Assembly (NCBI RefSeq): GCF_004135285.1
Contig: NZ_CP035494.1
Span: 1,550,001-1,614,000, forward strand
Length of the DNA stretch: 64,000 nt
Direction: 5' to 3'
From: Microbacterium protaetiae
GTDB taxonomy: Bacteria; Actinomycetota; Actinomycetes; Actinomycetales; Microbacteriaceae
Part shown: positions 24,751 through 40,248 of the stretch, piece by piece
Position numbering within the stretch: position 1 is the stretch's first letter
How the letters are laid out: each line of letters begins with the position of its first letter
The notes under the pieces: model-generated
What the model was told of the DNA's origin: nothing
The model's database searches: none
Seen by the model: the letters and a program-made list of their open reading frames with translations, nothing else
Translations under genes and position numbers: made by a program

Positions 24751-25146
24751 TCACAGAGGCGAATCGGGAAGCACCGCGACGAGGTCGCACTGAATGAGCG
24801 CCCCCCGGTCGAGCTGTGCAGCCATCGTGTGGCGTGCGGGGCGGGACGCGGCATCCGGGAACATCGCCAGCCACTGGGCGTTGAGCGCCTCGCGGTCGCG
24901 GTAGTCGACGAGCCAGAACGTCATCTTCACGATGTCGTCGACCGAACCGCCGGCGGCTCTCAGCAGTGCGCGCACGTGATGAAAGGCGTTCGCGCACTGC
25001 TCGGCCAGTGAGGTGGGCATCTCCCGCGTCTGCGGGTCGCGCCCGGTGAGCGCCCCGCTGAACAGGAACGGCCCGATGCGGCTGCCCGCCGGGATCGGGT
25101 TCTCGTGTGAGAACCCGCCGATGTGGATGCTCTGTCGTCGCGGCAT
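24751..25146 (-). CDS. RidA (YjgF/YER057c/UK114) family protein
   Basis: 131 residues, single RidA domain: FSHENPIPAGSRIGPFLFSG, CANAFHHVRALLRAAGG, DIVKMTFWLVDY, and the Arg in PARHTMAAQL near the imine-binding site; the usual downstream Glu is Asp here. RidA proteins hydrolyse enamine/imine intermediates, and some catabolic members act as 2-aminomuconate deaminases. Four bases after the FAA-hydrolase stop, so cotranscribed with the flavin monooxygenase operon. A catabolic deaminase role is inference from context. Confidence 0.85.
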   Translation of the reverse strand: MPRRQSIHIGGFSHENPIPAGSRIGPFLFSGALTGRDPQTREMPTSLAEQCANAFHHVRALLRAAGGSVDDIVKMTFWLVDYRDREALNAQWLAMFPDAASRPARHTMAAQLDRGALIQCDLVAVLPDSPL

Positions 25147-25150
25147 ACGG

Positions 25151-26023
25151 CTATCCTTGCGCGGGCGCGCCCTCTGCGACCACTCGGTTCTCGATGGCCC
25201 CCAAGCCTTCGATCTGACCGCGCACGAGGTCGCCGGGAACGAGGAACCGTCCCGTGGGCGCCCCGATCCCCGCCGGCGTGCCGGTGGCCAGGATGTCGCC
25301 GGGCATGAGCGTGAACACCTGGGTGAGATACGCGATCTGCTCGTAGATGTCGTAGATCATGTCCGAGGTGGCGAAGTCCTGACGCACGTCGCCGTTGACC
25401 GTCAGCTGCATGTGCAGGTTCAGCGGGTCGTCGATCTCGTCGTCGGTGGTCAGCCAGGGCCCGATCGGTCCGTGCGTGTCGAACGACTTGCCCAGCGTGA
25501 AGGTGGGCGAGCGCTTGTGCAGCCAGTCGCGCACCGACACATCGTTGGCCACGAGATAACCGGCGATCACCGATCGGGCGTCCTCGACTGCAACGTGCCG
25601 GCAGCGCTGACCGATCACCACCGCCAGTTCGATCTCATAGTCGAGCTGGTCCGAGATGTCGGGTTTGACGATGTCGTCGAAGGGTCCGACGATGCACGAC
25701 ACCTGCTTGTTGAACCACATCTGGCTGGTCGGCGTGGGGATGCCGGCCTGCCGTGCCTCTTCGGCGTGTTCCTTGTAGTTCATACCGATGCCGAGGTATT
25801 TCTGCGGGTCATCGATGGGCGCGTGCAGGTGCACGTCGGCCAGGGCGTGACGGGGGCCGGATGCCGCGGCCAGCGCTTCGCGCAGCTCGGGCAGCCGCGG
25901 CAGAAGGGCGCGCAACGAGGTACCGACTCCCGGCACCTCGGAGAGGTCGATGACGTCGTCGCCGTCGACGCGCGCGATGCGCACGTCATCGGACGCGGCG
26001 GTGCTGAAACGTGCGAGCTTCAT
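25151..26023 (-). CDS. Fumarylacetoacetate-hydrolase-family protein
   Basis: 290 residues. The FAH fold C-terminal domain begins near residue 75: YLGIGMNYKEHAEEA, then metal-site acids in DYEIELAVVIG and VANDVSVRDW, and the end GDILATGTPAGIG. The family includes acylpyruvate hydrolases, oxaloacetate/4-oxalocrotonate decarboxylases and hydratases acting after ring cleavage. The start overlaps the NTF2-like gene stop by 4 bases (ATGA), so the operon is tightly coupled. The exact reaction is not evident. Confidence 0.88.
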   Translation of the reverse strand: MKLARFSTAASDDVRIARVDGDDVIDLSEVPGVGTSLRALLPRLPELREALAAASGPRHALADVHLHAPIDDPQKYLGIGMNYKEHAEEARQAGIPTPTSQMWFNKQVSCIVGPFDDIVKPDISDQLDYEIELAVVIGQRCRHVAVEDARSVIAGYLVANDVSVRDWLHKRSPTFTLGKSFDTHGPIGPWLTTDDEIDDPLNLHMQLTVNGDVRQDFATSDMIYDIYEQIAYLTQVFTLMPGDILATGTPAGIGAPTGRFLVPGDLVRGQIEGLGAIENRVVAEGAPAQG

Positions 26024-26475
26024 CGGGAATCCTCCTCGTTCGCGGCATCCTGCTCACTGGGCAGCTTGCCCCACACCTCGTCGCCGTGCGGAGTCATCTG
26101 AAAGCTCACATATCGCCACGCGCCGTCGGCCCCGCGATGCAGCACCTGGGTGACCGGTCCGCTCAGGGTGCGCTCGCCGCCACCGGGGGCGCGCATGCGG
26201 TTTGTCAGCTCGCCGGTGACGACGGCGATATCCCCGGCGACCCGCATGTTCAGCTCGCCGCGCCACATGTCCAGGTAGGCGCGGCGGGCGGCGACATGCT
26301 CGAGCAGGTGGGCTTTGTCGTGCACCAGGCCCGGGGCGTGGATGTGCACGAGTGAGTCGTCGAAGAGGTCGTCGAGGGCGGCGATGTCGCCGTCGATGAG
26401 TGCCTGGCGGCGGCGTGCTTCGACCTCGAGAAGCTCAGCGCGCGTCGCCTGGTCAGCCGGATGGATGCCGCTCAC
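26020..26475 (-). CDS. NTF2-like (SnoaL/DUF4440-type) protein
   Basis: 151 residues from GTG 26475, which overlaps the stop of the flavin monooxygenase (GTGA). One NTF2-like cone fold: RRRQALIDGDIAALDDLFDD, HIHAPGLVHDKAHLLEH, ending WRYVSFQMTPH. Such proteins are small dehydratases, isomerases or ring-hydroxylating dioxygenase small subunits; no large subunit is nearby. The tight coupling on both sides says it works in the same pathway. Reading further upstream in this frame only shadows the monooxygenase gene. Confidence 0.8.
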   Translation of the reverse strand: MSGIHPADQATRAELLEVEARRRQALIDGDIAALDDLFDDSLVHIHAPGLVHDKAHLLEHVAARRAYLDMWRGELNMRVAGDIAVVTGELTNRMRAPGGGERTLSGPVTQVLHRGADGAWRYVSFQMTPHGDEVWGKLPSEQDAANEEDSR

Positions 26476-27752
26476 CGCGCCGACCCGGTCAGCGCGTCGT
26501 CGGTGCGGAACCCGGTGGGCTCGTCCTGCGCGAATCCGATGCGCTTCTGTCCGACCATCGCGTGGTACGTGCTGAAGATGGCGTTGGCCTCTTCGAGCGG
26601 CAGCACCTTCTCGATGTCGTCGAAGCGCTGGCCGCCGGTGCGCTCTTCGACCATGCGACGGATCACCTCGTAGCCCTCGCCGCGGTGCGACATGACGATG
26701 GCGTTGACCATCTGCAGCCGCTCCGACTCGAACGCCGTCAGAGCCTGAAGCGGGTCGTCGATGCTCGCGAGCTTGGCCGCCAGTGCGGCCCCGTCGACGA
26801 TGGACTGGCAGGCGCCGTTTCCACCGCGCGGATACATCGCGTGCGCGGCGTCGCCGATGAGCACGACCCGGCCGTCGGTCCAGCTGGTCAGCGGGTCGTG
26901 CCGGATGAGCGGGAACAGGTACACCTCGCGGGCGTTGCGCAGCATCTGCTGCACATCCAGGAACGGGATGGCGCACTGATCGTAATAGTGCATGACCTCG
27001 TCGATCGACCCGAGCTGGTTCCAGTCTTCGATCGACTCGTCGCGGGTGGCCTCGACGACCCAGTTCACGAGCGTCTTGCCCGATCCTTCGAAGTCGTCGG
27101 CGATCGGGTAGACGATCATGCTCGAGATGTCGGGCGCGCCGATGTGCAGAATCGTGTGGCCGTCGCGGAAGGGCTCCATCAGGGTGGTGCCGCGCCACAT
27201 CGTGATGCCCGAATAGACCGGATCGGCACTCTCGGGGTGCATCTGCCGGCGCACGACCGACTTGATGCCGTCGGCGGCGATGAGGATGTCGGCGGTGGCC
27301 TGTTCGGTGCGACCGTCGGCGTGCTGCAGGTGCAGGGTGACCGCGTTGTCGTCTTGTTCGTAGCGCAGCAGTCGGGCGCCCTGGACAACGGCGTCGGCGC
27401 CGAGCCGTTCGAGCACGGTGCGGTACAGCAGCATCTGCAGGATGCCGCGGTGCACGAAGCGCTGTTCGTATTCGTATCCTGCGGCGGTGCCGCAGAGTTC
27501 GGCGTAGATCTCCTGGCCGTACTTGTTGTAGAAGATCGACTCGCGCGCCTCCACCGAGATCGCCCGGAACTGGTCGAGCAGACCGAGCTGATCGAACTCC
27601 TCGGCGGCATAGGTCTTGATGTCCAGGCCGACACCGAGGGGCTTGAGCTCGGTGACCGTCTCATAGATGCGGGGGCGGAAGCCCTTCTGATGCAGGCGCA
27701 GGGCTGCGGCCAGGCCCGCGGGGCCGGCTCCGATGATGGCGATGTCGAGCAT
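26472..27752 (-). CDS. Flavin-dependent aromatic hydroxylase (PhzS-like)
   Basis: 426 residues, group A FAD monooxygenase. FAD-binding GAGPAGLAAALRL, the E of IYETVTELKPLGVGLDIK, the DG motif IAADGIKSVVR and the GD motif VVLIGDAAHAMYPRGGNGA. The order and wording of conserved blocks (RPLGVG, HRG.LQM, GITMWRG, LVNWV) recall PhzS, which hydroxylates a phenazine ring. It probably adds an OH to an aromatic or N-heteroaromatic acid using NAD(P)H and O2. First full gene of the minus-strand operon; AGGAACACC precedes the ATG. Substrate unknown. Confidence 0.87.
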   Translation of the reverse strand: MLDIAIIGAGPAGLAAALRLHQKGFRPRIYETVTELKPLGVGLDIKTYAAEEFDQLGLLDQFRAISVEARESIFYNKYGQEIYAELCGTAAGYEYEQRFVHRGILQMLLYRTVLERLGADAVVQGARLLRYEQDDNAVTLHLQHADGRTEQATADILIAADGIKSVVRRQMHPESADPVYSGITMWRGTTLMEPFRDGHTILHIGAPDISSMIVYPIADDFEGSGKTLVNWVVEATRDESIEDWNQLGSIDEVMHYYDQCAIPFLDVQQMLRNAREVYLFPLIRHDPLTSWTDGRVVLIGDAAHAMYPRGGNGACQSIVDGAALAAKLASIDDPLQALTAFESERLQMVNAIVMSHRGEGYEVIRRMVEERTGGQRFDDIEKVLPLEEANAIFSTYHAMVGQKRIGFAQDEPTGFRTDDALTGSAR

Positions 27753-27782
27753 GGTGTTCCTGTTCTGTTCTGGTCGGGGATG

Positions 27783-27842
27783 TCAGTAGACGCTCGGGCG
27801 TGCCCGGGCGGCTCTGCGCTCGGTGCTCATCAGGTCGTTCAT
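27783..27842 (-). CDS. Possible 19-residue leader peptide upstream of the PhzS-like gene
   Basis: ATG 27842 with GAGGACC 7 bases upstream opens a 19-codon frame (MNDLMSTERRAARARPSVY) ending 30 bases before the monooxygenase start. Five Arg codons in 19. It may be a translated leader or chance; no conservation can be checked here. Confidence 0.3.
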   Translation of the reverse strand: MNDLMSTERRAARARPSVY

Positions 27843-27953
27843 CTGTGGTCCTCGCGGTTCGTCGGCGGCGACCCGCTGCGGTCGGTGCCACCCTTCGGCC
27901 CGATGACGGCTGCGTCACCGACCCGGAGGAAGTGTGGTGCGAGCGTAAGGCAG

Positions 27954-27965
27954 ATCGCACACGAT
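27954..27965. promoter_or_regulatory. Candidate operator, left copy
   Basis: ATCG-CACA-CGAT is a perfect 4-bp-arm inverted repeat. The ten-base core TCGCACACGA recurs at 28120-28129. Both lie in the 432-base divergent gap between the two catabolic arms, which holds no other gene except the possible leader ORF. Confidence 0.45.
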
Positions 27966-28118
27966 TTCAAGCGCGATAGCTTCCCTGCACTCCGGGGTGG
28001 ATCGTGGGAAGGTCCACTATACGGTGCAGGGTTTATGCCATTGATCTGGGAGTTTACCTTCAGCTTTGCGAATGATGGCTGAGAGGGGTTACCTTGGACT
28101 CACGAAGTTGCATAGGAT

Positions 28119-28130: not shown

Positions 28131-28184
28131 CTTCGATGACCGCACTGATGCGGTGCCCGTACCCGACGTTGGGGGAAGAGCTCG

Positions 28185-29228
28185 ATGACCAATACCCGTA
28201 CTCCGGAAACCGGGACGCCCGCGCCCGACACCTATACCGGTCTCGTTCTGCAGGAGCACAGGACGGCCGGTGAACGCGTTCGCCATGCGCTGGGCTGGAC
28301 GTCGGCCCGTTTCTCGGTGATCGGCGTCTGGATCCTTTTCGTGATCCTCTACGCCGTGCTCGTGCCCGACACTTTCCTCACCTCGGGTGCGTTCCGTACG
28401 ATCTTCGGCAGTCAGCAGTCGCTCGTCTTTCTCACCGCATCACTGCTGTGCACGATCATCGTCGGTGAGTTCGTCGACATGTCGGTGGCTTCCAACTTCG
28501 GACTCGCGGCGACACTGGTCACGGTGCTCAACGTCAATCACGGCGTCAACGTGTGGGCAGCGGCGGTGATAGCCGTCGTCGCGACCACCGTCGTGGGCAT
28601 CATCAACGGCCTCTTGATCGTCAAGGTCGGGGTGAACACCATCGTGGTCACCCTCGGTATGGGCACGTTCCTGCTCGGGATCGGGTTGTGGCTGAGCAAT
28701 CTGATGCCGATCAGCGGGCTGCCCTCGTCGTTCTCGCAGATAGCGCTGTTCGAGATTCTCGGCCTGCCGCTGAGTTTCTACCTGGGGCTGATCCTCATGC
28801 TCGGCTTCGCGTACGTGTTGGCGTTCACGCCGCTCGGCCGCAACATGCGCTTCGTCGGCGAGAACCGAGAGGTCAGCCGGCTCGCGGGTGTGCGCGTCAC
28901 GCGGGTGCGCATCGGCGCGTTCGTCTTCGCGGGTGTGATCGCCGGCGTCGGCGGCGTGATCGCCGCAGCGGGAACGGGCGGGTTCGACCCGGCAAGCTCG
29001 CAGGCCTACCTGCTGCCGATGTTCGCGGCGACCTTCCTCGGCACTGCTGTGCTGTTCCCCGGCCGGTTCAACCCGATCGGCACGCTCATTGCCATCTACT
29101 TCCTTGCCACCGGCGTTCTCGGCCTGCAGCTGCTGGGCGCGACCTCGTGGGTCTCGAGCGTCTTCTACGGCGGCGTGCTGGTCATCGCCGTCACCCTGTC
29201 CACGATCCTCAACAAGAAATCGCGTTGA
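28185..29228 (+). CDS. Ribose-type ABC transporter permease
   Basis: 347 residues, RbsC/MglC-like integral membrane protein with about ten hydrophobic segments and the family block GENREVSRLAGVRVTRVRIGAFV near the C-terminal third. A 45-residue cytosolic N-terminus. GGGGGAAGAG precedes the ATG. It pairs with the downstream SBP and two-domain ATPase. Although the family is named for sugars, related importers carry other small polar compounds; the aromatic catabolic context suggests a ring compound as cargo (inference). Confidence 0.88.
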   Translation: MTNTRTPETGTPAPDTYTGLVLQEHRTAGERVRHALGWTSARFSVIGVWILFVILYAVLVPDTFLTSGAFRTIFGSQQSLVFLTASLLCTIIVGEFVDMSVASNFGLAATLVTVLNVNHGVNVWAAAVIAVVATTVVGIINGLLIVKVGVNTIVVTLGMGTFLLGIGLWLSNLMPISGLPSSFSQIALFEILGLPLSFYLGLILMLGFAYVLAFTPLGRNMRFVGENREVSRLAGVRVTRVRIGAFVFAGVIAGVGGVIAAAGTGGFDPASSQAYLLPMFAATFLGTAVLFPGRFNPIGTLIAIYFLATGVLGLQLLGATSWVSSVFYGGVLVIAVTLSTILNKKSR

Positions 29229-29265: not shown

Positions 29266-30426
29266 ATGATATCCACCACCCGCGTGCACCTCATGCGTGC
29301 CCTGACCGCCGGCGCGGCCGTGGCCGCCGTCGCACTGAGCCTTGCCGCGTGCAGCGCCACCGACGACAAGGCGGCGAGCACCCCGAGCACGTCGGCTGAG
29401 AGCCCGGCGCTGGCGGCCCTGGCCGACCTGCAGAAGCCGTTGGATGCCTACCCGGTTCCCACCGAACCGATCGAGGGCGTCGACGCCGACAAGGGCGGCA
29501 CCCTCTACTACATTCCGATCACGCAGCAGTCGCCCGAGTTCGCCGTCGACCAGGCCGGCGTCGAGGCGGCGGCAGCCGCCGTCGGAATGTCGGTGCAGGT
29601 GTGCGACGGCAAGGGCACCCCGACCGAGGTCAGCGCGTGCATCGACCACGCGACCAACGCGAAGGCCGCCGGCATCATCCTCGATGCGGTGCCGTACGAC
29701 ATCGCCGCCAACTCGATCGCCGCCGCACAGAAGGCGGGCATCCCGGTCGTGATCGGCAACCAGCTCGCCGATGACCGCCACCCGTCGACCCCGACGTTCA
29801 CCTACACGGCCGTCAGCGGTTCGGCGCAGCAGGAGGCTCTGGCGCGCTGGGTGATCGCCGACTCCGACGGCAAGGCCAACGTGCTGATGAACGTGACCAC
29901 CGACGGTCAGTCGCAGATCCAGTACGCCGCGGACGGCAAGAAGGTCTTCGCCGATGAGTGCAGCGGTTGCACCGTCGCCACCAACGAGGTGTCGTCGGCC
30001 AACTTCTCGCAGGTTCCCAGCTCGACCAGTTCCGCGCTGCTGAAGAACTCCGACACCGATTACCTCATCGTCGAGTTCGCCCAGTTCCTGCAGGCGACGC
30101 AGTCGGGCGTGCAGAACGCCGGTGCCAGCGGCCGGATCACTCTCGCCGCCGGTTCTGCGTCGCTGAACGACATCAAGGCCGTCGCGTCGGGCTCGGTCGG
30201 TGCAGCCACCGCGCAGGCCTCGGCCTTCGTCGGGTGGATGTACGTCGACGCGACCCTGCGGCTGATCGCCGGTCAGAGTGTTCCCGAGTACACGATCCCG
30301 ATCCGGCTGTTCACGAAGGACACCATGGGCGACGTGCAGCTGACCGAGGCGGCGCAGGAGTCGGGCGAGTGGTTCGGCCCCACCACCTTCACCGACGAGT
30401 TCAAGAAGCTGTGGGGCGTGGCGTGA
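29266..30426 (+). CDS. ABC solute-binding lipoprotein 1 (ribose-type)
   Basis: 386 residues with AAGGAG ribosome site. Lipoprotein signal ends at SLAAC (Cys near residue 29). The type I periplasmic-binding fold follows: GGTLYYIPITQQSPEFAVDQ, CIDHATNAKAAGIILDAVPY, AGIPVVIGNQLADDRHP. A paralogue is at 34467-35639 in the same cluster. The stop overlaps the ATPase start by 4 bases. Confidence 0.88.
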   Translation: MISTTRVHLMRALTAGAAVAAVALSLAACSATDDKAASTPSTSAESPALAALADLQKPLDAYPVPTEPIEGVDADKGGTLYYIPITQQSPEFAVDQAGVEAAAAAVGMSVQVCDGKGTPTEVSACIDHATNAKAAGIILDAVPYDIAANSIAAAQKAGIPVVIGNQLADDRHPSTPTFTYTAVSGSAQQEALARWVIADSDGKANVLMNVTTDGQSQIQYAADGKKVFADECSGCTVATNEVSSANFSQVPSSTSSALLKNSDTDYLIVEFAQFLQATQSGVQNAGASGRITLAAGSASLNDIKAVASGSVGAATAQASAFVGWMYVDATLRLIAGQSVPEYTIPIRLFTKDTMGDVQLTEAAQESGEWFGPTTFTDEFKKLWGVA

Positions 30427-32048
30427 CCGAAAGCACGAGCGCAGACAGGCGGGGAGCGGACACCCCCCGCCTGGACGTGCACAACCTCTGGATGACGTTC
30501 GCGAACAACAGAGTGCTGCGCGATGTCGCCATCGAGGTGCGACCCGGTGAGATCCACGGCCTGGTCGGGCAGAACGGGTCGGGCAAGTCGACGCTCGCGA
30601 AGGTGCTGACCGGGCTGTATCACCCCGATCCGGGCACGCGGGTGAGCGTGGACGGAACTGAGCTGAAGCTGCCCGTGCAGCCGCGCGAGGCGCGTGAGCG
30701 CGGCGTCGCGGTCGTGCACCAGAGCCTGGGGCTGTTCGACGACGACACCGTCCTCGAGAATCTTCGGATCGGGCGCCACCGTGCCAGTCGGGTGCTGCGC
30801 CGGATCGACTGGAAGCATGAGCGCGCCCAAGCCCGGGCCGTGTTCGAACGGCTGGGCCGCGACATCCCCCTCGATGCCCGCGTGGGCACGCTGCGCGAAG
30901 AGCAGCGCGCTACCGTCGCCATCGCCCGCGCACTGCAGGATGCCACGCCCGGTCGAGGTCTGATCATCTTCGACGAGTCGACGCGCGCACTGGGCCGGCC
31001 GTCGTTGGAGCACTTCTTCCGCATTCTCGACGACATCGTGCAGACGGGAACGTCGGTGCTGCTGATCACGCACCGTCTCGAGGAGATCATCGACGCCGCC
31101 GATCGCGTCACCGTGCTGCGCGACGGCCGGATCGTCGAGATGGGCCGCTCGGTCGAGGGCCTCGATGAGGCCGCGCTGGCCGAGTTGATGCTCGGCACCA
31201 CGCTCACACACGAGGTGCGTGGACATGCCTCGACAATGGATGCCGCAGCCCGGCCGATCACGGTCGCGGGCCTGCATGGCGGCGAGGTCGCCGACGCGTC
31301 GCTTCAGGTGCGCCCGGGTGAGGTGCTCGGGCTGACCGGTATCGCCGGGTCGGGCTATGACGACGTGCCCTATCTGCTCAGCGGCGTCACTCCGCCGGCC
31401 GCCGGCTCTCTGACTTTGTCTGGAGGCGAGTTGGGTCTGCACAGCCTGACCCCGGGCGATGCCATCGCGGCCGGTGTCGTGCTGGTGCCCGAGGGGCGCG
31501 AGCATGCTGGCCTGGCGATGGGCATGTCGGTGCAAGAGAACACGGTGTTCCCGCAGACAAGTCGCGCCCGCGCTGCGCTCAAGCCGTTCGCCCGGAGTGA
31601 GGAACGCGCCCAGGTGGCCGACTGGATAGATCGGCTCGACGTGCGCCCGCCCGATCCCAGCGCGATCGTGGGTACGCTCAGCGGCGGCAATCAGCAGAAG
31701 GTGCTGCTGGCCAAATGGCTGGCGATGGACCCTGAGCTGCTGCTGCTGCACGAGCCGACCCAAGCTGTTGACGTCGGGGCGCGGCAGACCATCGTCGCTG
31801 CGGTCCGGGCGGCTGCGGCATCCGGACGCGCCGTCATCGTCGCCGGCGGCGACGAGAACGAGCTGTCGCTGCTGTGCGACCGCGTCGTCGTCTTCGAAGA
31901 CGGCAGGGTCAGTCGCGAGCTGACCGAGGATCTGACGCCCGAGAACATCGTGCGGGCCATCTACACCCAACAGGGACGCAGCCGCCTGCGCGCGCGGTCC
32001 ACTGACCCCTCGATGAACGAAGAAGAAAAGAAGGAACAATCACTATGA
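30423..32048 (+). CDS. Ribose-type ABC ATPase with two nucleotide-binding domains
   Basis: 541 residues from GTG 30423, overlapping the SBP stop. NBD1: Walker A GQNGSGKST, a degenerate signature (LREEQRATVAIARAL instead of LSGGQ), Walker B LIIFDEST. NBD2: Walker A degenerate (GIAGSGYDDVP, no Lys), good signature LSGGNQQKVLLAKWLA and Walker B LLLLHEPTQAVDVG. Asymmetric sites are typical of RbsA/MglA, though loss of the NBD1 signature is more marked than usual. It energises the permease at 28185. The stop overlaps the amidohydrolase start by 4 bases. Confidence 0.9.
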   Translation: MTESTSADRRGADTPRLDVHNLWMTFANNRVLRDVAIEVRPGEIHGLVGQNGSGKSTLAKVLTGLYHPDPGTRVSVDGTELKLPVQPREARERGVAVVHQSLGLFDDDTVLENLRIGRHRASRVLRRIDWKHERAQARAVFERLGRDIPLDARVGTLREEQRATVAIARALQDATPGRGLIIFDESTRALGRPSLEHFFRILDDIVQTGTSVLLITHRLEEIIDAADRVTVLRDGRIVEMGRSVEGLDEAALAELMLGTTLTHEVRGHASTMDAAARPITVAGLHGGEVADASLQVRPGEVLGLTGIAGSGYDDVPYLLSGVTPPAAGSLTLSGGELGLHSLTPGDAIAAGVVLVPEGREHAGLAMGMSVQENTVFPQTSRARAALKPFARSEERAQVADWIDRLDVRPPDPSAIVGTLSGGNQQKVLLAKWLAMDPELLLLHEPTQAVDVGARQTIVAAVRAAAASGRAVIVAGGDENELSLLCDRVVVFEDGRVSRELTEDLTPENIVRAIYTQQGRSRLRARSTDPSMNEEEKKEQSL

Positions 32049-33091
32049 CCGTCGTCGATATCTGCATCCACCACCTGCCGGAAGACCTCTTCACCAACCA
32101 GAAGATGCTCAACGGCTTCCTCAACTCCGCGCCGCGCGGCTTCGGCGAGATCGTGCGCGTCGAGAAGATGGACAACGGCAAACATCACCTGGTGCTGGAA
32201 AAGCCCGCCGGGCACGACAACCTCGACTACGTCGAGGGCGACTACTCGGTCGAGGCCAAGCTCGCCGTCATGGACGACGCGGGAGTCGACTACGGCATCA
32301 TGCGCGTGCCGGTGTGGCAGGAGTGGCTCGATCTGGAGACCTGCAAGGCCGTCAACGACAACGCGGCCGAGTACTGCAAGCGCTCGGGCGGCCGACTTTT
32401 CTTCACCGCCGCGGTGCCGCCGTGGGGCGGCAAGGAGAACATCGACGAGCTCAAGCGCTGCATCGACCTCGGTGCCGTGGGAGTGCAGCTGGCCTGCCAC
32501 TACGGCCAGCTCTATCTCGACGACCCGGTGTTCGAGCCCTACTTCCGCGAGATCGAGAAGCTGAACATCCCGGTCATCGCGCACCACACTCCGCTGCCGG
32601 TGGAATGGCAGTCGGTCGTCGACTACAAGAATCTGCGCCGTGAGTACGGGCGCGTCATCGACCAGGGCATCGCCGTGGGCCGCGAGCTGTTCAGCGGCAT
32701 GTTCGACCGGATGCCGAACCTGCGCATGATCCACACCATGATGGGCGGAAACTGGTTCGCCAGCACCGAGTTGCTGACGCCGCACGCGTCTCCGAAGAAG
32801 GAGTCGCTGCAGCGCCTCGATTCCACCAGCGGCGAGAAGATCAAGAGCTACCTCGAGAACAACATCTTCTACGACATGACCCACCCGCACTCGTGGGGCA
32901 AGACCCAGGTCGAGGCGGCGCTGAAGATCAACGGCGCCGATCACTTCATGTTCGGCTCGTCGTTCCCGGTGTTCTACGGCTGGATGAGCCAGGGCGTGGA
33001 CTTCCTCACCAACGAGGTCGAGATCAGTGACGCCGACCGCGAGGCGGTGCTCTCGGGCAACGCGAAGCGTCTTTTCAACCTGCCCATCTGA
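32045..33091 (+). CDS. Amidohydrolase-2 / ACMSD-like protein with altered metal site
   Basis: 348 residues of the ACMSD/gamma-resorcylate decarboxylase superfamily: VDICIHHLPEDLF at the N-terminus, KLAVMDDAGVDYGIM, DLGAVGVQL, IPVIAHHTPL, and the C-terminal FGSSFPVFYG...GNAKRLFNL. In ACMSD the start reads D-x-H-x-H and the late motif GSDYP supplies an Asp. Here the first His aligns with Cys and the Asp with Ser, so the usual Zn site looks incomplete. It may use a different metal set, have another chemistry (hydratase, lyase) or be non-catalytic. Its place behind the importer argues for a catabolic role. Confidence 0.8.
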   Translation: MTVVDICIHHLPEDLFTNQKMLNGFLNSAPRGFGEIVRVEKMDNGKHHLVLEKPAGHDNLDYVEGDYSVEAKLAVMDDAGVDYGIMRVPVWQEWLDLETCKAVNDNAAEYCKRSGGRLFFTAAVPPWGGKENIDELKRCIDLGAVGVQLACHYGQLYLDDPVFEPYFREIEKLNIPVIAHHTPLPVEWQSVVDYKNLRREYGRVIDQGIAVGRELFSGMFDRMPNLRMIHTMMGGNWFASTELLTPHASPKKESLQRLDSTSGEKIKSYLENNIFYDMTHPHSWGKTQVEAALKINGADHFMFGSSFPVFYGWMSQGVDFLTNEVEISDADREAVLSGNAKRLFNLPI

Positions 33092-33102
33092 AAGACACGC
33101 GG

Positions 33103-34410
33103 ATGACGGAACTCACCGACCACGACATCGACGGATCGTTCTCGACCGCGCGCATCAATGTACGCTCCGACGACATCCTGCTCACTTCAGACAGCTACCG
33201 CGAGTTCATCTACGACCACGACGACCCCGCGATAGCGAAGTTCCGTGGGCTTGACTACGAAGCGTTCGCCGACGAGAAGAAGAGGCCTTCGTTCGTGCAG
33301 GACCTGCTCGCCTCGTGGCAAGCGCTGTACGACGAGCCGTTCGTGGGCATCACCACCGATGGAACCCTCGTGCCGGGGCTGTATCCGCTACCCAAGCGCA
33401 CCGAGCCGAACGACGAGCGGATGGTCACCGCGGCCTACCACTTCCTCGCGACGCTCGACGCGCCGCAGCGGGCCGCGGTGAACCATGCGATCGACGCCCC
33501 CGAGTGGCGGGCGTGGAGCAACCCCGAGTTCGTCATCCATCGGGTGGGCGTGCGTCTGGAGGAGTTGTCGAGGGATGCCGCAGACGCGGCGCTGAGCCTG
33601 GTCGCGGCATCCCTCAGCCCCGCCGGCTACGAGCGCGTGCGCGAGGCGATGTCGCTGAACGGCTACCTCGGCGAGCTGACCGATCTCACGCCGCTCATGA
33701 ACGAGCGCAGCTACTGGTTCTCGCTGTTCGGCACGCCGTCGACCACCGAGCCGTGGGGCTGGCAGCTGTTCGGGCACCACGTCGCCGTGAACTGCATCGT
33801 GGTCGGCGGGCGGCAGGTGATAGCCCCGGTGTTCCTCGGCGCCGAACCCGCGCTCTCCGACGGCGCGCACCCTCCGCTGTTCGCCGACCGTGAAGCCCAG
33901 GCGATCCGGCTCGGCGAGTCGTTCACCGATGCGCAGCGGGCGAAGGCCGTCGTGTACCGATCGGTGCTCGACCCCGCGATGCCCGAGGGGCGGGTGCACC
34001 CCGCCGACGAGCGCCACGTGGCCGGCGCCTTCCGCGACAACCGCGTCGTGCCGTACGAGGGCATCTGCGTGCGGGAGTTCGACGATGCTCAGCGGCGGTT
34101 GCTGCGTGAGATCGTCGACGACTTCCTGCTGCTGCTGCCCGACCACCAGCGCGCACTGACGATGCAGCTGGTGGGCGCGCACCTCGGCGACACCTGGGTC
34201 AGCTGGTACGGCGCAACCGACGGGTCACAGCCGTTCTATCTGCGCATACAGAGCCCGGTGATCATCGCCGAGATGGACCACCATGCCGGCGTCTGGCTGA
34301 GCAACAGGCTGCCGGCTCGCTTCCACGTGCACACCACGCTGCGGCTGCCCAACGGCAACGACTACGGCCGGGCCTACCTTGCGCAGTGGCGCGCACAGCG
34401 GAACGAGTGA
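33103..34410 (+). CDS. DUF3500 protein
   Basis: 435 residues, soluble, no signal peptide. The wording PFVGITTDGTLVPGLYPL, PQRAAVNHAIDAPEWRAWSN, SYWFSLFGTPSTTEPWGWQ and FGHHVAVNCIVVGG matches the DUF3500 family as I recall it. It is rich in His/Trp/Asp in the central block, which could hold a metal or cofactor, but no function is established. Only 11 bases follow the amidohydrolase stop, so it belongs to the same operon. Confidence 0.8.
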   Translation: MTELTDHDIDGSFSTARINVRSDDILLTSDSYREFIYDHDDPAIAKFRGLDYEAFADEKKRPSFVQDLLASWQALYDEPFVGITTDGTLVPGLYPLPKRTEPNDERMVTAAYHFLATLDAPQRAAVNHAIDAPEWRAWSNPEFVIHRVGVRLEELSRDAADAALSLVAASLSPAGYERVREAMSLNGYLGELTDLTPLMNERSYWFSLFGTPSTTEPWGWQLFGHHVAVNCIVVGGRQVIAPVFLGAEPALSDGAHPPLFADREAQAIRLGESFTDAQRAKAVVYRSVLDPAMPEGRVHPADERHVAGAFRDNRVVPYEGICVREFDDAQRRLLREIVDDFLLLLPDHQRALTMQLVGAHLGDTWVSWYGATDGSQPFYLRIQSPVIIAEMDHHAGVWLSNRLPARFHVHTTLRLPNGNDYGRAYLAQWRAQRNE

Positions 34411-34466: not shown

Positions 34467-35639
34467 ATGACCATCACGCATCGCGCCGCACGGCGCACTC
34501 GGGTGCTGACAGCACTCGCGGTGGGGGCGGCTCTGACCGCGACCCTCGCCGCGTGCAGCTCCGATTCCGACGACGGCGGTTCCGCGTCGGCTCCCTCGGG
34601 TGAGACGAGCGCGGACTCTGCGCTCGCGCAGGAGATCACCACGCTCGAGCAGCCACTGGATGCCTTCCCGGTACCCACCGACAAGGTCGACGGCGTCGCC
34701 GATCTGGCCGGGGGCACCATCTACTACGTGCCGATCACCTCGCGCGCGCCGCAGTTCGCCATCACGCAGGCAGAGATCACCGTGGCCGCCAAGGCCGCGG
34801 GGCTGAAGGTGCAGGCGTGTGACGGAAAGGGCACGCCCACCGACATCTCGGCATGCATCACCCAGGCCACGCATGCGAAGGCCGTCGGCATCGTGCTCGA
34901 CGGTCTTGCGTACGACATGGCGGCCAACGCGATCGAGGGCGCGCAGAAGGCGGGTGTGCCGGTGGTGATCTCGAACCAGATGACCGATGAGCGGCATCCG
35001 GCCACCGAGACGTTCTCAAATGTCGGCACCGCCGGTTCCCCGCAGATGATCGCGCTGGCCAAGTGGATCATGTTCGATTCGGGCGGCAAGGCGAATGTGC
35101 TCATCAACGAGGCCACCGACGGCGCATCTCAGATCGCGTACGTCGAGGCCGCTGTCGACGAGTTCACGAAGGACTGCCCCGACTGCACCGTCACCGTCAA
35201 CAAGGTCTCGTCGGCCAGCTTCGATCAGATTCCCTCGTCGACGAGTTCGGCGCTGCTGAAGAACCCCGACATCGACTACGTCATCTCGGAGTTCGCCGAG
35301 TTCCTGCAGCCGACGGCACAGGGTGTGCAGCAGGCAAGCGCCAAGGTGACGATGACCACCGCCGCATCTGCGCTGAGCACGCTGAAGGAGCTCAAGGGCG
35401 GCGCCACTCTGCAGGCGGCCACCGCGCAGGCCGCCGGTTACCAAGGATGGGTCGACGTCGACGCGATCCTGCGTCTGCACGCCGGTCAGGACGTGCCGGA
35501 GTACGAGGTGCCCACACGTCTGTTCACGCCGGACACGCTCGACGGTGTCGAGCTGACCTCGGACGCGGAGCAGACGGGGGCGTGGTTCGGTCCGGCGACA
35601 TACACCGACGACTTCACCGCTCTGTGGGGCGTCAACTAG
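34467..35639 (+). CDS. ABC solute-binding lipoprotein 2 (paralogue of 29266)
   Basis: 390 residues from ATG 34467 (AAGAGAGA upstream). Lipoprotein signal ends at TLAAC. Closely related to the first SBP along its whole length: QPLDAFPVPTDKVDG, GGTIYYVPITSRAPQFAIT, DGLAYDMAANAIEGAQKAGV, and both end in a WFGP.T(Y/F)TD(D/E)F..LWGV motif. No second permease or ATPase is present, so the two binding proteins probably feed one channel with different substrates or affinities. It is the last gene before a strong terminator. Confidence 0.87.
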   Translation: MTITHRAARRTRVLTALAVGAALTATLAACSSDSDDGGSASAPSGETSADSALAQEITTLEQPLDAFPVPTDKVDGVADLAGGTIYYVPITSRAPQFAITQAEITVAAKAAGLKVQACDGKGTPTDISACITQATHAKAVGIVLDGLAYDMAANAIEGAQKAGVPVVISNQMTDERHPATETFSNVGTAGSPQMIALAKWIMFDSGGKANVLINEATDGASQIAYVEAAVDEFTKDCPDCTVTVNKVSSASFDQIPSSTSSALLKNPDIDYVISEFAEFLQPTAQGVQQASAKVTMTTAASALSTLKELKGGATLQAATAQAAGYQGWVDVDAILRLHAGQDVPEYEVPTRLFTPDTLDGVELTSDAEQTGAWFGPATYTDDFTALWGVN

Positions 35640-35850: not shown

Positions 35851-35880
35851 TGTGACCACGACAACGAAGTAGGTGGAGAT

Positions 35881-37014
35881 ATGAGCACGAGCACGGCTCT
35901 CATCGTCGGCGGCGGGATCGGCGGGCTTTCGGCCGCGATAGCGCTCAGCGACGCGGGTTGCGAGGTCACGGTCGTCGAGCGACACGCTGACGTCCATTCC
36001 TCGGTGTACGGCGTCGGAATCATCCAGCCGGTCAACGCCCTGCGGGCGCTGGCGGCGATCGGATGTGCCGACGCGTGCATCGAGGCCGGCTACCCCGCCG
36101 AGGGATGGGGCAAGATGTACGACGTCGACGGCGTCTTCCTGCACGCGATGCCGGGGGCCGTGATCGAGGGCTCGGGTCTGCCGCCGCTGAACGGTGTGAC
36201 CCGGCCGAAGCTGCACGAGATTCTCACTGAGCGCGCCCACGATGCCGGGGTCGACATCCGGTACGGAACTTCGTTCACCACGTTGGAGCAAGACGATGAT
36301 GCTGTGACGGTCACGCTCACCGATGGCCAGGTCGCGCGCGTCGACCTGGTCGTGGGTGCGGACGGTGTGCGCTCGCAGGTGCGCCGGGAGGTCTTCGGAT
36401 CGCAGCTGCAGCCGCGCTACATCGGCCAGTCCGCCTACCGCGTGAACGTGCCGCTGGACCCGGAGATCGATCGCATCATCCTGCAGGCGGGCCCCGAAGG
36501 CATGGCCGGGTTCGTGCCGATCGGCAAAGACCTGGCCTACTTCTTCTACAACGCTCAGATGGAGCGCCCGCCGCATGAGGACCGGCGAGATCTCGTCGCC
36601 GAGCTGCGGGAGCACCTGCGCCCGTTCGCCGGGCTCACCGCTCGTGCGCGCGACGAATGGATCGACGGGTCGAGCGAGATCGTGCTTCGCCCCGAGGAGT
36701 CACTCATCCTGCCTGGACCGTGGCACCGTGGACGGGTGGTCCTGCTCGGGGATGCTGTGCACGCCATCACCCCGCATCTTGGCCAGGGTGCGGCACAGGC
36801 CATCGAAGACGCCGTCGTGCTGGCCGAAGAGGTGAGCAGGCAGGGTGCGACGGATGCCGCGTTCCAGGCGTACCTGCATCGGCGCTTCGAGCGCTGCGAG
36901 CTGATCGTGCAGACCTCGCTGAACATCGGCGAATGGGAGATGGGTCGGCTCGAGGGGTTCGACAACGTCGCGGCGACCAACCACGTCCTCGAGGTGATGG
37001 CGCGCCCCCTGTGA
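35881..37014 (+). CDS. FAD-dependent aromatic monooxygenase (second)
   Basis: 377 residues from ATG 35881 (GGTGGAG upstream). Group A hydroxylase: GGGIGGLSAAIAL, Glu/Arg of VVERHADVHSSVYG, DG motif VGADGVRSQVR, GD motif VVLLGDAVHAITPHLGQGAAQAIEDA. Only distantly related to the PhzS-like enzyme at 26472; closer to salicylate/6-hydroxynicotinate-type hydroxylases. Followed 55 bases later by a MarR regulator on the same strand. Probably a second hydroxylation or an alternative entry step; substrate unknown. Confidence 0.85.
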   Translation: MSTSTALIVGGGIGGLSAAIALSDAGCEVTVVERHADVHSSVYGVGIIQPVNALRALAAIGCADACIEAGYPAEGWGKMYDVDGVFLHAMPGAVIEGSGLPPLNGVTRPKLHEILTERAHDAGVDIRYGTSFTTLEQDDDAVTVTLTDGQVARVDLVVGADGVRSQVRREVFGSQLQPRYIGQSAYRVNVPLDPEIDRIILQAGPEGMAGFVPIGKDLAYFFYNAQMERPPHEDRRDLVAELREHLRPFAGLTARARDEWIDGSSEIVLRPEESLILPGPWHRGRVVLLGDAVHAITPHLGQGAAQAIEDAVVLAEEVSRQGATDAAFQAYLHRRFERCELIVQTSLNIGEWEMGRLEGFDNVAATNHVLEVMARPL

Positions 37015-37069
37015 GTCGGTGCCCGGCCGTGCGATAGCATGGCGCGGCCGGGCGGGCGGAAGGACGGGC

Positions 37070-37504
37070 ATGAGTACTGACGGGCTGGCGGTGACGCTCC
37101 GGGAGCTCGCCTGGGTCATCCACAAGCGCATCCCCGAACGGGCAGGTGTCGGCCCTCTGCCGACGACGGAGGTCGCCCTCCTCAAGCAGGTCATCGATGG
37201 GCCGGGGCAGACGGTCGGCGAGCTGTCGGCCGCCCTCGGGCTGCGGCAGCCGAACACCTCTGCCGCACTGCGCGTGCTGACCTCGCGCGGTCTCGTCGTG
37301 CGATCGGCGGATGCCGCGGATCGACGCACCAGCCGTATCCACCCGACCGAGGAGGGGCGTCGCGAGCACGAGGCGATAGCGGCCGCATGGGCCGCGTCGG
37401 TCGATGACGCGCTGGACACACTGCCCGAGTCCGACCGCTCGGCTTTGACGAATGCCGCAGGAGCCCTCTCAGCGCTCGCGCGCGCTATGCACGCGGCAGA
37501 GTGA
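37070..37504 (+). CDS. MarR-family regulator
   Basis: 144 residues from ATG 37070 (GGAAGG upstream). Winged helix: PTTEVALLKQVIDG, QTVGELSAALGLRQPNTSAALRVL, the wing RSADAADRRTSRIHPTEEG with the conserved DRR. MarR proteins usually release DNA on binding aromatic ligands. It is cotranscribed with the flavin monooxygenase and the AT-rich palindrome at 35824-35837 is a likely operator. Confidence 0.87.
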   Translation: MSTDGLAVTLRELAWVIHKRIPERAGVGPLPTTEVALLKQVIDGPGQTVGELSAALGLRQPNTSAALRVLTSRGLVVRSADAADRRTSRIHPTEEGRREHEAIAAAWAASVDDALDTLPESDRSALTNAAGALSALARAMHAAE

Positions 37505-37513
37505 GCCTTTCAC

Positions 37514-38173
37514 TCAGCGTCCGTCGCGCTCCGCGTCGTATTTGAGCACGGCATCCACCGTCTTGATCTCGTGCCGGCGCGCGGCGGTCTCGATCATCTC
37601 GGCGTCGGCGCCGCCCTCGATCAGGTCGATGAGCGACTCGTGCTCGGTGATCGAGGCGAGGGCGCGCCCGGGCGCGTACCAGAACGCTGAGCGGCGGATG
37701 ACCTCGGCGCGCGCCCACTCCGAGATGACCATGTCGTTGAGGCGGGCGTCTTCGCACCGCGAACACAGCAGCTCGTGGAACTCGCGATTGAGCTGCCCGA
37801 ACCGGCCGGTGTCGAAGTTGGCCAGGGCGTCGCCCATCTCGGTGTTCAGGGTGCGGGCGTGCGCGATGTCGTCGGAGGTGAGGTTCTGGGCCGACAGCGA
37901 GGTGGCGAAGCCTTCCAGGCGGGCCAGCAGCAGCATGGTGTGCTTCCAGGCGTCGGTGTCGAATGTCTTGACCATGGCGCCGACATTCGGGATGATCTCG
38001 ACCCAGCCCTCGGCCTCAAGGCGTCGCAACGACTCGCGCCAGGGCACGGAGCTGATGTTGAACTCGCGGCCGAGCTGGTCGATCACCAGGCGCCGACCGG
38101 GGCCGAACGTGCCGTCCATGATGCGCTCTTTGAGGGTCAGGTAGGCCTGTTCTGCCTTGCTCGCAACCGCCAC
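37514..38173 (-). CDS. GntR-family regulator (FCD type)
   Basis: About 219 residues from GTG 38173 (GGAGA upstream); GTG 38206 would add 11 residues with no ribosome site. N-terminal winged helix (QAYLTLKERIMDGTFGPGRR, EFNISSVPWRESLRRLEAEGWVEI) and an all-helical FCD domain with the metal-site Asp/His pattern (RLEGF, NREFHELL, EHESLIDLI, RRHEIKTV). FCD regulators often sense carboxylic acids. Convergent with marR, and downstream of lysR on the same strand. Confidence 0.85.
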   Translation of the reverse strand: MAVASKAEQAYLTLKERIMDGTFGPGRRLVIDQLGREFNISSVPWRESLRRLEAEGWVEIIPNVGAMVKTFDTDAWKHTMLLLARLEGFATSLSAQNLTSDDIAHARTLNTEMGDALANFDTGRFGQLNREFHELLCSRCEDARLNDMVISEWARAEVIRRSAFWYAPGRALASITEHESLIDLIEGGADAEMIETAARRHEIKTVDAVLKYDAERDGR

Positions 38174-38195
38174 ACGCACTCTCCGCCGAGTCGAT

Positions 38196-38220
38196 ATTTC
38201 GTACACATCATCGTACAGGA
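38196..38220. promoter_or_regulatory. Candidate GntR operator
   Basis: Reading the minus strand, TGTACGATGATGTGTACGA carries TGTACGA twice and GTAC at both ends, in the gap before the GntR start. Modest support from position. Confidence 0.35.
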
Positions 38221-39131
38221 TCTGCTGCGCGGGCCGACGACAGGCACGCGAGCAAGCGATCGATGACGGGATACTGCGCCGCGCCGGGGCGCACGAGCAC
38301 GAGAGAGCGCAGCGGACGGGGCGCGGGGTGCAGCGGGCGGGTGACCAGGTCGAAGCGCCCCAGACTCGCGCCGTCGGGGTCGGGCAGGATGCCCCAGGCG
38401 GTTCCTGCCTCGATGAACGGGATGCTGGTCTGGATCGTTTCTGCGGTGCGCACGGCGCCGGGGGTCACGTGGCACGCGCGAAGCGCGTCTTCGACAGCCT
38501 CGGGCAGGCTGGGCACCGCGGCCGTGCGCTGCGGCAGCACGAGAGTGTGGCCCTCGAACGCCTGCAGTGGCAGCGGGTCGGGCGTATCGGTCTCGGTGGG
38601 CGGCAGCGCCGCCACGAGGGGAATGTCACCGCCGTCGACGATGTCGAACTGCCCCCGGTGTCGCTTCGCGAACCGTGGGCCATCGTCGACCATGATCATC
38701 GCGACGTCGACCGTTCGCCGGGCGAGCATGTCGATCGCCGTCCACGGCGGCGGGTCGGTCAGGCGCACCTCGACATCGGGTGCGGCCTTGGCGAAGGCCC
38801 GCAGCAGCCGGGGGAGCCGGTGCCACAGCAGCGTGGGCACGACGGCGAGCGAAACGCGACCGGTGGTTCCCGCGCCGAAGCGTCCGAGCGTCTCGACGAT
38901 GTCGTCTGCGGTTGAGAGCAGGCCGGCTGCGGCATCCAGCAGATAACGCCCCGCACTGGTGGGCTCGACCCCGCGCGGCGAGCGCACGAGCAGGGCGACG
39001 CCCACGGACGCCTCGAGCTTGCCGATAGCGACGCTCAGCGAGGGCTGCGCCAGGTGCAGGGCCTGCGCTGCGGCCGAGAATGAGCCCGCTTCGACCACGG
39101 CGGTGAAGTACCGCAGGTGCCGCAGTTCCAT
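38208..39131 (-). CDS. LysR-family regulator
   Basis: 307 residues from ATG 39131 (MELRHLRYFTAVVEAGSFSA). The HTH SAAAQALHLAQPSLSVAIGKLE is followed by an effector-binding domain (GRVSLAVVPTLLWHRLPRLL, VDVAMIMVDDGP). Reading further upstream adds unlikely residues inside the divergent promoter. It is divergent from the extradiol dioxygenase with 121 bases between; a LysR box lies there. Catabolic LysR proteins commonly activate the divergent gene when the pathway intermediate is bound. Confidence 0.88.
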   Translation of the reverse strand: MELRHLRYFTAVVEAGSFSAAAQALHLAQPSLSVAIGKLEASVGVALLVRSPRGVEPTSAGRYLLDAAAGLLSTADDIVETLGRFGAGTTGRVSLAVVPTLLWHRLPRLLRAFAKAAPDVEVRLTDPPPWTAIDMLARRTVDVAMIMVDDGPRFAKRHRGQFDIVDGGDIPLVAALPPTETDTPDPLPLQAFEGHTLVLPQRTAAVPSLPEAVEDALRACHVTPGAVRTAETIQTSIPFIEAGTAWGILPDPDGASLGRFDLVTRPLHPAPRPLRSLVLVRPGAAQYPVIDRLLACLSSARAADPVR

Positions 39132-39158
39132 GGTGTCGATGATAGCTCTGCTCTCGAT

Positions 39159-39173
39159 ATAGCGAATGACTAT
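39159..39173. promoter_or_regulatory. LysR box in the dioxygenase promoter
   Basis: ATAG-CGAATGA-CTAT is a T-N11-A palindrome (4-bp arms, 7-base centre) between the divergent lysR and dioxygenase genes, the standard location for a LysR-type site. Confidence 0.6.
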
Positions 39174-39252
39174 TGCTTCGAGAGGTGATTCGGGGATTCC
39201 GCCACGACGCCGGCTCGCCGACGATGGAAACACCGACCCGAAGGAGAAGGCG

Positions 39253-40248
39253 ATGCTGCCCACCTGGAACCAGAATCCCCCGTTCACCCTCACCCGTGCC
39301 AGCCACGTGCGCCTGGCCGTGACCGACCTGAGCGCCAGCCGCGACTTCTATCGCGACACGGTGGGGCTCGTGGTCACCGAAGAGGCCGATGACGTCGTCT
39401 ACCTGCGTGGACTCGAGGAATCGGCGCACCACAGCCTCGTGCTCGAGCGCGCCGAGACTGCGCAGGCCCTGCAGATCGGGCTGCGGGTGCGCACCGACGA
39501 CGACATCGTCGCCGCAGAGAAGCACTTCGCCGCGCACGGCATCGAGCACGAGCGCGTCGAGCTGCCGCACCAGGGACCGACCCTGCGCTTTCGCGACCCC
39601 GTGGGCACGCACATGGAGCTGACCAGCAGCATGTCGCTCGTCGAGCGCAAGATGCAGAACTTCGATGAGTTCGTCGCCGGTGCCCCGCAGCGCATCGACC
39701 ACTACCAGTGCGTGACCTACGACGTGCAGGCGGCCACCGACTTCTGGACGGGCCTGGGCATGCGCATGAGCGAGTACACCGCCAAGGACGACACCGACGA
39801 GCTGTGGGGCACGTGGATGGAGGTCAAGGGCAACACCCACGATCTCGTCTTCACGAACGGGCGCGGGCCGCGCCTGCACCACTTCGCCTACACGGTGCCC
39901 GATGTCTCGTCGCTGATGCGGGCGGCGGATGTCGCCGGTGCGACCGGCTTCGGTGAGGAGATCGACCGGGGACCGGGCCGCCACGGCATCAGCAACGCCG
40001 TGTTCCTGTATCTGCGCGACCCCGACCAGCATCGCATCGAACTGTTCACCACGCACTACCAGTTCATCGACCTCGAAGAGCAGCCGATCCGCTGGGACAT
40101 CAGCAACCGCCGCCGCGCGCAGCTGTGGGGCATGCCCGCCTCACGCCGGTGGTTCTTCGAGGCCAGCGAGTTCCCGGGCGAGAACGTGCGTGAGCCGCTG
40201 CTGACGGCCACCCCCGACACGCTCGAGGACTTCCTCGGCGTGCACTGA
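39253..40248 (+). CDS. Extradiol ring-cleavage dioxygenase (homoprotocatechuate 2,3-dioxygenase-like)
   Basis: 331 residues from ATG 39253 (AAGGAGAAGG upstream). Two VOC modules: SHVRLAVTDLSASRDFYRDT, then RIDHYQCVTYDVQAATDFW. The Fe/Mn ligands of type I extradiol enzymes are in place: His150 (RIDHY), His209 or 210 (LHHFAY) and Glu263 (HRIELF). GPGRHGISNAVFLYLRDPD and the C-terminal WDISNRRRAQLWG/WFFEAS match the Brevibacterium homoprotocatechuate dioxygenase layout. It cleaves a catechol-type ring next to the diol with O2. Substrate may be a carboxylated catechol or dihydroxypyridine; not determinable. Confidence 0.85.
   Translation: MLPTWNQNPPFTLTRASHVRLAVTDLSASRDFYRDTVGLVVTEEADDVVYLRGLEESAHHSLVLERAETAQALQIGLRVRTDDDIVAAEKHFAAHGIEHERVELPHQGPTLRFRDPVGTHMELTSSMSLVERKMQNFDEFVAGAPQRIDHYQCVTYDVQAATDFWTGLGMRMSEYTAKDDTDELWGTWMEVKGNTHDLVFTNGRGPRLHHFAYTVPDVSSLMRAADVAGATGFGEEIDRGPGRHGISNAVFLYLRDPDQHRIELFTTHYQFIDLEEQPIRWDISNRRRAQLWGMPASRRWFFEASEFPGENVREPLLTATPDTLEDFLGVH

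Follow-up and report, generated by a model that had tools for sequence, protein, structure and literature searches.

What kind of compound does a compact set of 15 catabolic genes in Microbacterium protaetiae break down, and which of the encoded enzymes would open the ring? The genes fill 15.5 kb (positions 24751-40248) of the window, by which we mean the whole 64,000-nucleotide stretch analysed (bases 1550001-1614000 of the 3.79 Mb single-contig genome), and they encode a DUF3500 protein, two flavin monooxygenases (FMO1 and FMO2), an FAH-family hydrolase, NTF2-like, RidA-family and Amidohydro_2 proteins, an extradiol dioxygenase (HPCD2), an ABC importer and regulators. An earlier sequence-only reading had described this region as a ring-catabolism island with its own importer, acting on a nitrogen-containing aromatic compound, and while the first part of that description holds, the second is not supported. 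Judging from gene content, the island most likely takes up and opens hydroxyl-rich aromatic rings from plants, with DUF3500 and its partners pointing to polyhydroxylated, oxygen-only rings.

In fungi, 2,4,6-trihydroxybenzoate is a substrate of the 1,2,3,5-tetrahydroxybenzene (THB) pathway, and a fungal cluster of a monooxygenase, an FAH-like enzyme, a DUF3500 protein and a short protein, the subject of 2024 work by Martins et al., reportedly acts on gallate and 2,4,6-trihydroxybenzoate. At the level of protein families, the island shares with the fungal pathway the grouping of DUF3500, a flavin monooxygenase and an FAH-family hydrolase. The fungal pathway also has a lactone intermediate, which would fit the dienelactone hydrolase found in 34 of 44 bacterial relatives of the island, whereas the bacterial genes differ in forming operons with ABC import, an HpaD-type dioxygenase and HpaH/HpaI steps. 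Two reports present the fungal DUF3500 reaction as the opening of a ring (PMC12388069, PMC13094099), with the A. nidulans DUF3500 protein AN10530 as the proposed ring opener of THB (PMC12388069) and the THB pathway called apparently restricted to fungi (PMC13094099).

A genome scan with DUF3500 returned 171 coding relatives, and the best 80 loci, which were used for all locus counts, were split into group A (44 loci; L002-L044 and L046) and group B (36 loci). Counts in group A refer to genes within ~10 kb of DUF3500, several loci being broken by contig ends. The island was present in varying completeness in group A, with Amidohydro_2 in 43 loci, FMO1 in 41, NTF2 in 35, FAH and GntR each in 33, HPCD2 in 28, RidA in 25, LysR in 23, the ribose-type permease and ATPase each in 19, FMO2 in six and MarR in five; an overlap filter lowers some of these counts slightly (RidA to 21, FAH to 32). 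These include two features expected of a fungal-type THB pathway, namely the DUF3500 protein and, clustered with it, a flavin monooxygenase and an FAH enzyme. HPCD2 showed the highest median identity of the island genes, at 81%. Group A loci also carry genes with no match in the window, encoding a dienelactone hydrolase (PF01738; 34 loci), RraA-like protein (28), HpaH (27), HpaI (26), SDR (10), O-demethylase-like protein (eight, or five in a stricter count) and SSADH-like dehydrogenase (seven), and the dienelactone hydrolase likewise had no match in 17 further stretches of the M. protaetiae genome that were searched. The one O-demethylase-like protein scanned scored 539 bits with the DesA model and 506 bits with the LigM model, below both cut-offs, and folate-like genes, judged by eye, lie near the O-demethylase-like gene in L002, L005 and L010.

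Since the island genes recur together in 44 of the 80 loci, and the other 36 lack matches at 38% identity to the eight of them named below, their grouping is more than chance; the search for conserved synteny that the sequence-only reading had proposed thus found the genes grouped and not scattered. An Opp-type binding protein replaces or accompanies the ribose-type system in 18 of the 44 loci, and the island is therefore a real unit with an exchangeable importer. Rows of the DUF3500 tree span nine actinobacterial families (Microbacteriaceae, Demequinaceae, Promicromonosporaceae, Cellulomonadaceae, Nocardiaceae, Streptomycetaceae, Nocardioidaceae, Micromonosporaceae and Micrococcaceae), with a close relative at 84% identity from Microbacterium, and at least 3278 proteins match DUF3500 at E 1e-3 among 7998 candidates scored.

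The group B DUF3500 proteins are 47-51% identical to that of the island and are accompanied by an FAH enzyme (35 of 36 loci), a flavin monooxygenase (34), a bicupin (31), a BD-FAE-type esterase (30) and a GH78 alpha-L-rhamnosidase (13), with the first three all together in 30 loci. The bicupin domains are cupins, many relatives of this protein carry the name quercetin 2,3-dioxygenase in their source records, and the group B loci are mostly quercetinase clusters. No group B locus had a match at 38% identity to the island's RidA, FAH, NTF2, FMO1, Amidohydro_2, GntR, LysR or HPCD2, or to the HpaH, HpaI or dienelactone hydrolase of its relatives, and the two groups are therefore separate gene sets. 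As in the island, DUF3500 in group B stands beside an FAH enzyme and a flavin monooxygenase; however, the monooxygenase is PRK06126 with Rng_hyd_C in the one locus scanned (L045), and the quercetinase-type bicupin of group B was matched in none of the 44 group A loci (searched at 40% identity) and not in the window (at 38%). Quercetinase is established to release a 2,4,6-trihydroxybenzoate ring. The combination of DUF3500 with a flavin hydroxylase and an FAH enzyme thus recurs in fungi, quercetinase-type loci and the island, although the hydroxylases differ between groups A and B. We consider it about evenly balanced whether the island encodes a bacterial pathway for highly hydroxylated oxygen-only rings, with THB-type chemistry and built like the fungal route.

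Using tblastn of DUF3500 against plasmids we obtained matches in 49 records and examined five loci. A plasmid of the alphaproteobacterium Thioclava (L092) carries a reduced module, with identities of 66% for SDR, 57% for FMO1, 55% for HPCD2, 50% for HpaH, 45% for dienelactone hydrolase, 44% for HpaI, 43% for DUF3500, 37% for NTF2, 36% for FAH and a weak 27% for GntR, whereas the Amidohydro_2, RidA and RraA queries found nothing there. In Paraburkholderia (L093), Rhodococcus (L094) and Streptomyces (L095 and L096) DUF3500 has other partners: all but L095 have an FAH match, and L093-L095 have oxygenases annotated as Rieske-type or ring-hydroxylating. DUF3500 is therefore used in several aromatic contexts.

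Eight genomes that bear the cluster (G001-G008; six Streptomyces/Kitasatospora, one Nocardioides and one Virgisporangium) have no HPCD2 (best match 96 bits) and neither an HpaD of either class nor an HpaE over cut-off. HpaH lies in the cluster in all eight, scoring 340-366 bits, and four of these scores exceed the 351.5 cut-off. Each of the eight genomes also has a second DUF3500 paralog, which matches that of the Streptomyces locus L010 (within 3416-4795) at 61-100% identity and 524-1049 bits. In six genomes this paralog is seen inside the locus, following RidA as the last gene of the FMO1 operon; in Nocardioides it sits just past the locus edge, and in G006 on another contig of a draft assembly. 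The paralog query gave a best match of only 253 bits (39%, G011) in seven HPCD2 genomes, and no paralog was found at E 1e-40 in 28 further genomes, with G001-G008 as the positive control and L017 left out. Eight other group A loci lack HPCD2 nearby, and in six of these it is encoded elsewhere in the genome at 78-81% identity, giving HPCD2 in 34 of the 44 relatives, 28 in the locus and six elsewhere. Across 43 genomes, eight have the paralog only, 33 have HPCD2 only, two metagenome-assembled genomes (L041 and L043) have neither, and no genome carries the two together. The paralog label requires four changes on the DUF3500 tree, of which well-supported branches force only one, so replacement events may be few.

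Because HPCD2 and the paralog are mutually exclusive in the 43 genomes, the simplest reading is that the DUF3500 paralog takes the place of HPCD2 in the Streptomyces-type clusters and that a DUF3500 protein would there do the job of the ring-cleaving dioxygenase. This forms part of a joint reading, which we offer as a tentative possibility, in which DUF3500 is a ring-opening family unlike the described dioxygenases, widespread in bacteria and interchangeable with an extradiol dioxygenase, and the island is a bacterial THB central pathway. The sole DUF3500 protein with a solved structure, 9x86, carries the title dehydratase ApmL. DUF3500 could accordingly be a dehydratase or hydratase that acts once the ring is open, the opening itself being carried out in all versions of the cluster by HPCD2 or by an unlinked dioxygenase, and the presence of HPCD2 in most relatives is in keeping with this. 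However, the eight genomes without HPCD2 also lack any HpaD over cut-off, the quercetinase-type loci have DUF3500, a hydroxylase and an FAH enzyme with HPCD2 in none of the 36, and the fungal reports speak of ring opening (PMC12388069 and PMC13094099), so that we regard a dehydratase role as rather doubtful. It overlaps with the explanation considered next, and the likelihoods that we attach to the different readings do not sum to one.

This second alternative is a variant homoprotocatechuate (3,4-dihydroxyphenylacetate; Hpa) pathway, in which HPCD2 would be a true HpaD, an ordinary aldehyde dehydrogenase would serve for HpaE, and the DUF3500 operon would prepare substituted, for example methoxylated, arylacetates. 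HPCD2 does exceed the HpaD equivalog cut-off, and in alignment with the solved homoprotocatechuate enzyme it retains His155, His200, His214, Arg243, Tyr257, Glu267, Arg293 and Trp304 (numbering of the solved enzyme), which comprise metal ligands, the acid-base His and carboxylate-binding residues. As in the Hpa meta pathway, the relatives add RraA, HpaH and HpaI, with HpaH over its cut-off, and the SSADH-like dehydrogenase and O-demethylase-like proteins counted above would also suit such a route. Nevertheless, Asn157 of the solved enzyme is Gln in 29 of 29 HPCD2 rows, and HpaE was found in none of the 44 group A loci and not in the window. Where HpaE over cut-off was detected among the genomes tested, it accompanied a canonical HpaD (433-438 bits in G010, G013 and G014, and the Hpa cluster of M. 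protaetiae itself, G000), and it was absent from all four genomes whose sole HpaD above the cut-off is HPCD2 (G009, G011, G012 and G015). Other aldehyde dehydrogenases in the tested genomes reach best scores of 449-527 bits on the HpaE model, and one of these may therefore substitute for it. M. protaetiae also has a separate Hpa cluster at C1:465-472 kb (L090:5189-12123), with an FAH-RraA fusion, GntR, HpaE, HpaD, HpaH and HpaI (the last two at C1:470549-472056, outside the window), and its HpaD is 39% identical to HPCD2. Furthermore, the eight paralog genomes retain HpaH with the cluster without an HpaD or HpaE over cut-off, and the island differs from the Hpa pathway in its additional DUF3500, FMO1, NTF2 and Amidohydro_2 genes. 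Taken with these differences, a variant Hpa pathway is unlikely. Compared by description only, the Herbaspirillum fde and Variovorax ifc flavonoid/isoflavone clusters resemble the island in that a phenolic ring is first hydroxylated by a flavin enzyme and then cleaved by a dioxygenase of the glyoxalase fold, but the report on them does not mention DUF3500, and its passages on the clusters name no Hpa-type lower genes (PMC11069340).

The nitrogen-ring proposal depended on the Amidohydro_2 and RidA proteins. The Asp of ACMSD and gamma-resorcylate decarboxylase, presumably catalytic, aligns with Ser306 of the Amidohydro_2 protein, and all 44 of 44 rows have Ser there. Position 7, taken as the first of the expected N-terminal HxH, is Asn in 43 rows and Cys in the window protein. 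His9, His10, His180, His181, His230, His280 and His282 are invariant across the 44 rows. What the sequence-only reading called ACMSD-like is, on these alignments, a strongly constrained protein and not an intact, standard ACMSD. The best solved relatives of RidA are YjgF/TdcF (E 2e-10), the match to 2-aminomuconate deaminase (6izh) being weak (E 1e-4). Domain scans of the island proteins revealed no aldehyde dehydrogenase, in agreement with the earlier remark that no aminomuconic semialdehyde dehydrogenase is visible. The island shares the Amidohydro_2, RidA and extradiol superfamilies with 2-aminophenol and 3-hydroxyanthranilate meta cleavage but differs in lacking the active-site Asp and the dehydrogenase. 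Although the island does encode a RidA with Arg105, an extradiol dioxygenase and an Amidohydro_2 protein, import, hydroxylation and meta cleavage of an N-containing aromatic or N-heteroaromatic acid, with deamination by RidA and decarboxylation by the ACMSD-like protein, is very improbable, because Ser replaces the ACMSD Asp and RidA occurs in just 25 of 44 relatives and gave no match in the Thioclava locus, while the extradiol enzyme is HpaD-type and the proteins that accompany it in relatives, such as HpaH, HpaI, the dienelactone hydrolase and the O-demethylase-like protein, are those of oxygen-only aromatics. The further suggestion that the chemistry may differ from known routes was borne out in that the gene set is unlike each described route compared.

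Returning to THB-type chemistry, the binding proteins and ABC system would import a phenolic acid or glycoside, which FMO1, acting like PhzS or salicylate hydroxylase, would hydroxylate to a THB-type ring, possibly with loss of CO2. DUF3500 would open this ring to a lactone or chain, and a dienelactone hydrolase (encoded next to DUF3500 in 34 of 44 relatives, but not in the window) together with the FAH enzyme would split a 2,4-diketo acid into central metabolites. The LysR-linked HPCD2 may open a second, catechol-type ring bearing an acid side chain, its products passing via RraA, HpaH and HpaI, which are adjacent in 26-28 of 44 relatives and lie at another locus in M. protaetiae, while the Amidohydro_2, NTF2 and RidA proteins would act on intermediates. 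A two-ring polyphenol as substrate would explain why there are two enzymes for ring opening, two lower branches and regulators of their own, although this is a guess, and a doubtful one.

The 15 genes are packed into tight operons (Table 1), and all gene types named by the sequence-only reading were recovered as domain or profile matches. FMO1, NTF2/DUF4440, FAH and RidA form a minus-strand operon in which neighbouring genes overlap by 4 bases at two of three joints, RidA being set off by a 4-base gap. A plus-strand arm runs divergently from this operon and consists of permease, binding protein, fused ATPase, Amidohydro_2, DUF3500 and second binding protein, followed by FMO2 and MarR on the plus strand. 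The minus strand then carries GntR and LysR, and LysR and HPCD2 are divergent. The 4-base overlaps claimed earlier are real, with frames checked at FAH/NTF2 (26020-26023), NTF2/FMO1 (26472-26475), first binding protein/ATPase (30423-30426) and ATPase/Amidohydro_2 (32045-32048), but the regulation described as four-part comprises only three encoded regulators. The BPD_transp_2 permease, fused ATPase and Peripla_BP_4 protein constitute a ribose-type (CUT2) ABC importer; the two Peripla_BP_4 proteins are 54% identical to each other, and the ATPase, whose start was inferred from the 4-base overlap, scores 334 bits with NCBIfam AraG, below cut-off. FMO1 matches PhzS (PDB 2rgj/3c96, titled 'flavin-containing monooxygenase'; E 3e-74), and in the FAH enzyme His86/Glu89 and Glu130/Glu132/Asp161, presumably catalytic, are invariant in 27 of 27 aligned rows. 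DUF3500 is a single-copy gene in this genome, and the G+C content of the island (67.0%) is like that of its surroundings (67.1% left flank, 68.7% right flank).

Table 1. Genes of the island, with positions in the window and supporting matches.
Feature	Position	Strand	Evidence
RidA-family protein, 131 aa	24751..25146	-	PF01042 51 bits; Arg105 kept in 25/25 rows
FAH-family hydrolase, 290 aa, HpaG / 2,4-diketo-3-deoxyrhamnonate-hydrolase-like	25151..26023	-	PF01557 237 bits; best PDB matches 1gtt, 8gsr
NTF2-like / DUF4440 protein, GTG start, 4-base overlap with both neighbours	26020..26475	-	PF14534
FMO1, class A flavin monooxygenase, PhzS-like	26472..27752	-	NF005720 457 bits, cut-off 400
Ribose-type ABC permease	28185..29228	+	PF02653
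Substrate-binding lipoprotein 1	29266..30426	+	PF13407
Fused ABC ATPase, RbsA/AraG type	30423..32048	+	PF00005 x2 (longer frame from 29958)
Amidohydrolase_2 protein, altered active site (Cys7/Asn7, Ser306)	32045..33091	+	PF04909 (covers only profile positions 59-289)
DUF3500 protein, proposed ring-opening enzyme	33103..34410	+	PF12006 320 bits; structure model pLDDT 82
Substrate-binding lipoprotein 2	34467..35639	+	PF13407 (longer frame from 34386)
FMO2, second flavin monooxygenase, PRK06847 group	35881..37014	+	NF005313 405 bits, cut-off 372 (longer frame from 35842)
MarR regulator	37070..37504	+	PF12802 (longer frame from 37019)
GntR/FCD regulator	37514..38173	-	PF00392 + PF07729
LysR regulator	38208..39131	-	PF00126 + PF03466
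HPCD2, HpaD-type extradiol dioxygenase	39253..40248	+	TIGR02295 332.8 bits, cut-off 321.4

Around the island, a 15-base repeat occurs at window positions 24653-24667, 40412-40426 and 40483-40497, the two right-end copies forming an inverted pair with a spacing of ~71 bases. When up to two mismatches are allowed, another six matches occur in ~336 kb of sampled genome outside the window, and the repeat is therefore a dispersed element and no proof of insertion. Directly after the HPCD2 gene lies a tandem array of a 7-base GCCCGGC unit (40257-40369), and an anaerobic ribonucleotide reductase (NRDD) is encoded at 42128-43987, near this oxygen-dependent catabolic gene set. Towards the start of the window, the frames at 933-1499 and 3672-4136 have the stretch MTNDVTLSKTMSHALRHAPEEYGLL in common, which looks like a partial gene duplication within 3 kb. 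At C1:389-395 kb of the genome (L091:5600-10754), a LigM-like O-demethylase (44% identical to that of L002) adjoins an RraA-like aldolase, accompanied by LigU/PrpF-like and GalB-like proteins, judged by eye, and a VOC protein 24% identical to HPCD2; this cluster is perhaps a gallate or protocatechuate type pathway. In Microbacterium oryzae (L015:6010-8907) a GH78 alpha-L-rhamnosidase gene lies directly upstream of the Amidohydro_2-DUF3500 operon, and just one more group A locus (L031) has such a gene.

Together, these results provide a candidate function for DUF3500, a large bacterial protein family tied so far to ring opening in fungi only, and the mutual exclusion of HPCD2 and the DUF3500 paralog constitutes a direct genetic prediction. 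If the proposed function is correct, a ring-opening route described in fungi would extend to bacteria and would be linked to the turnover of flavonoid and lignin carbon.

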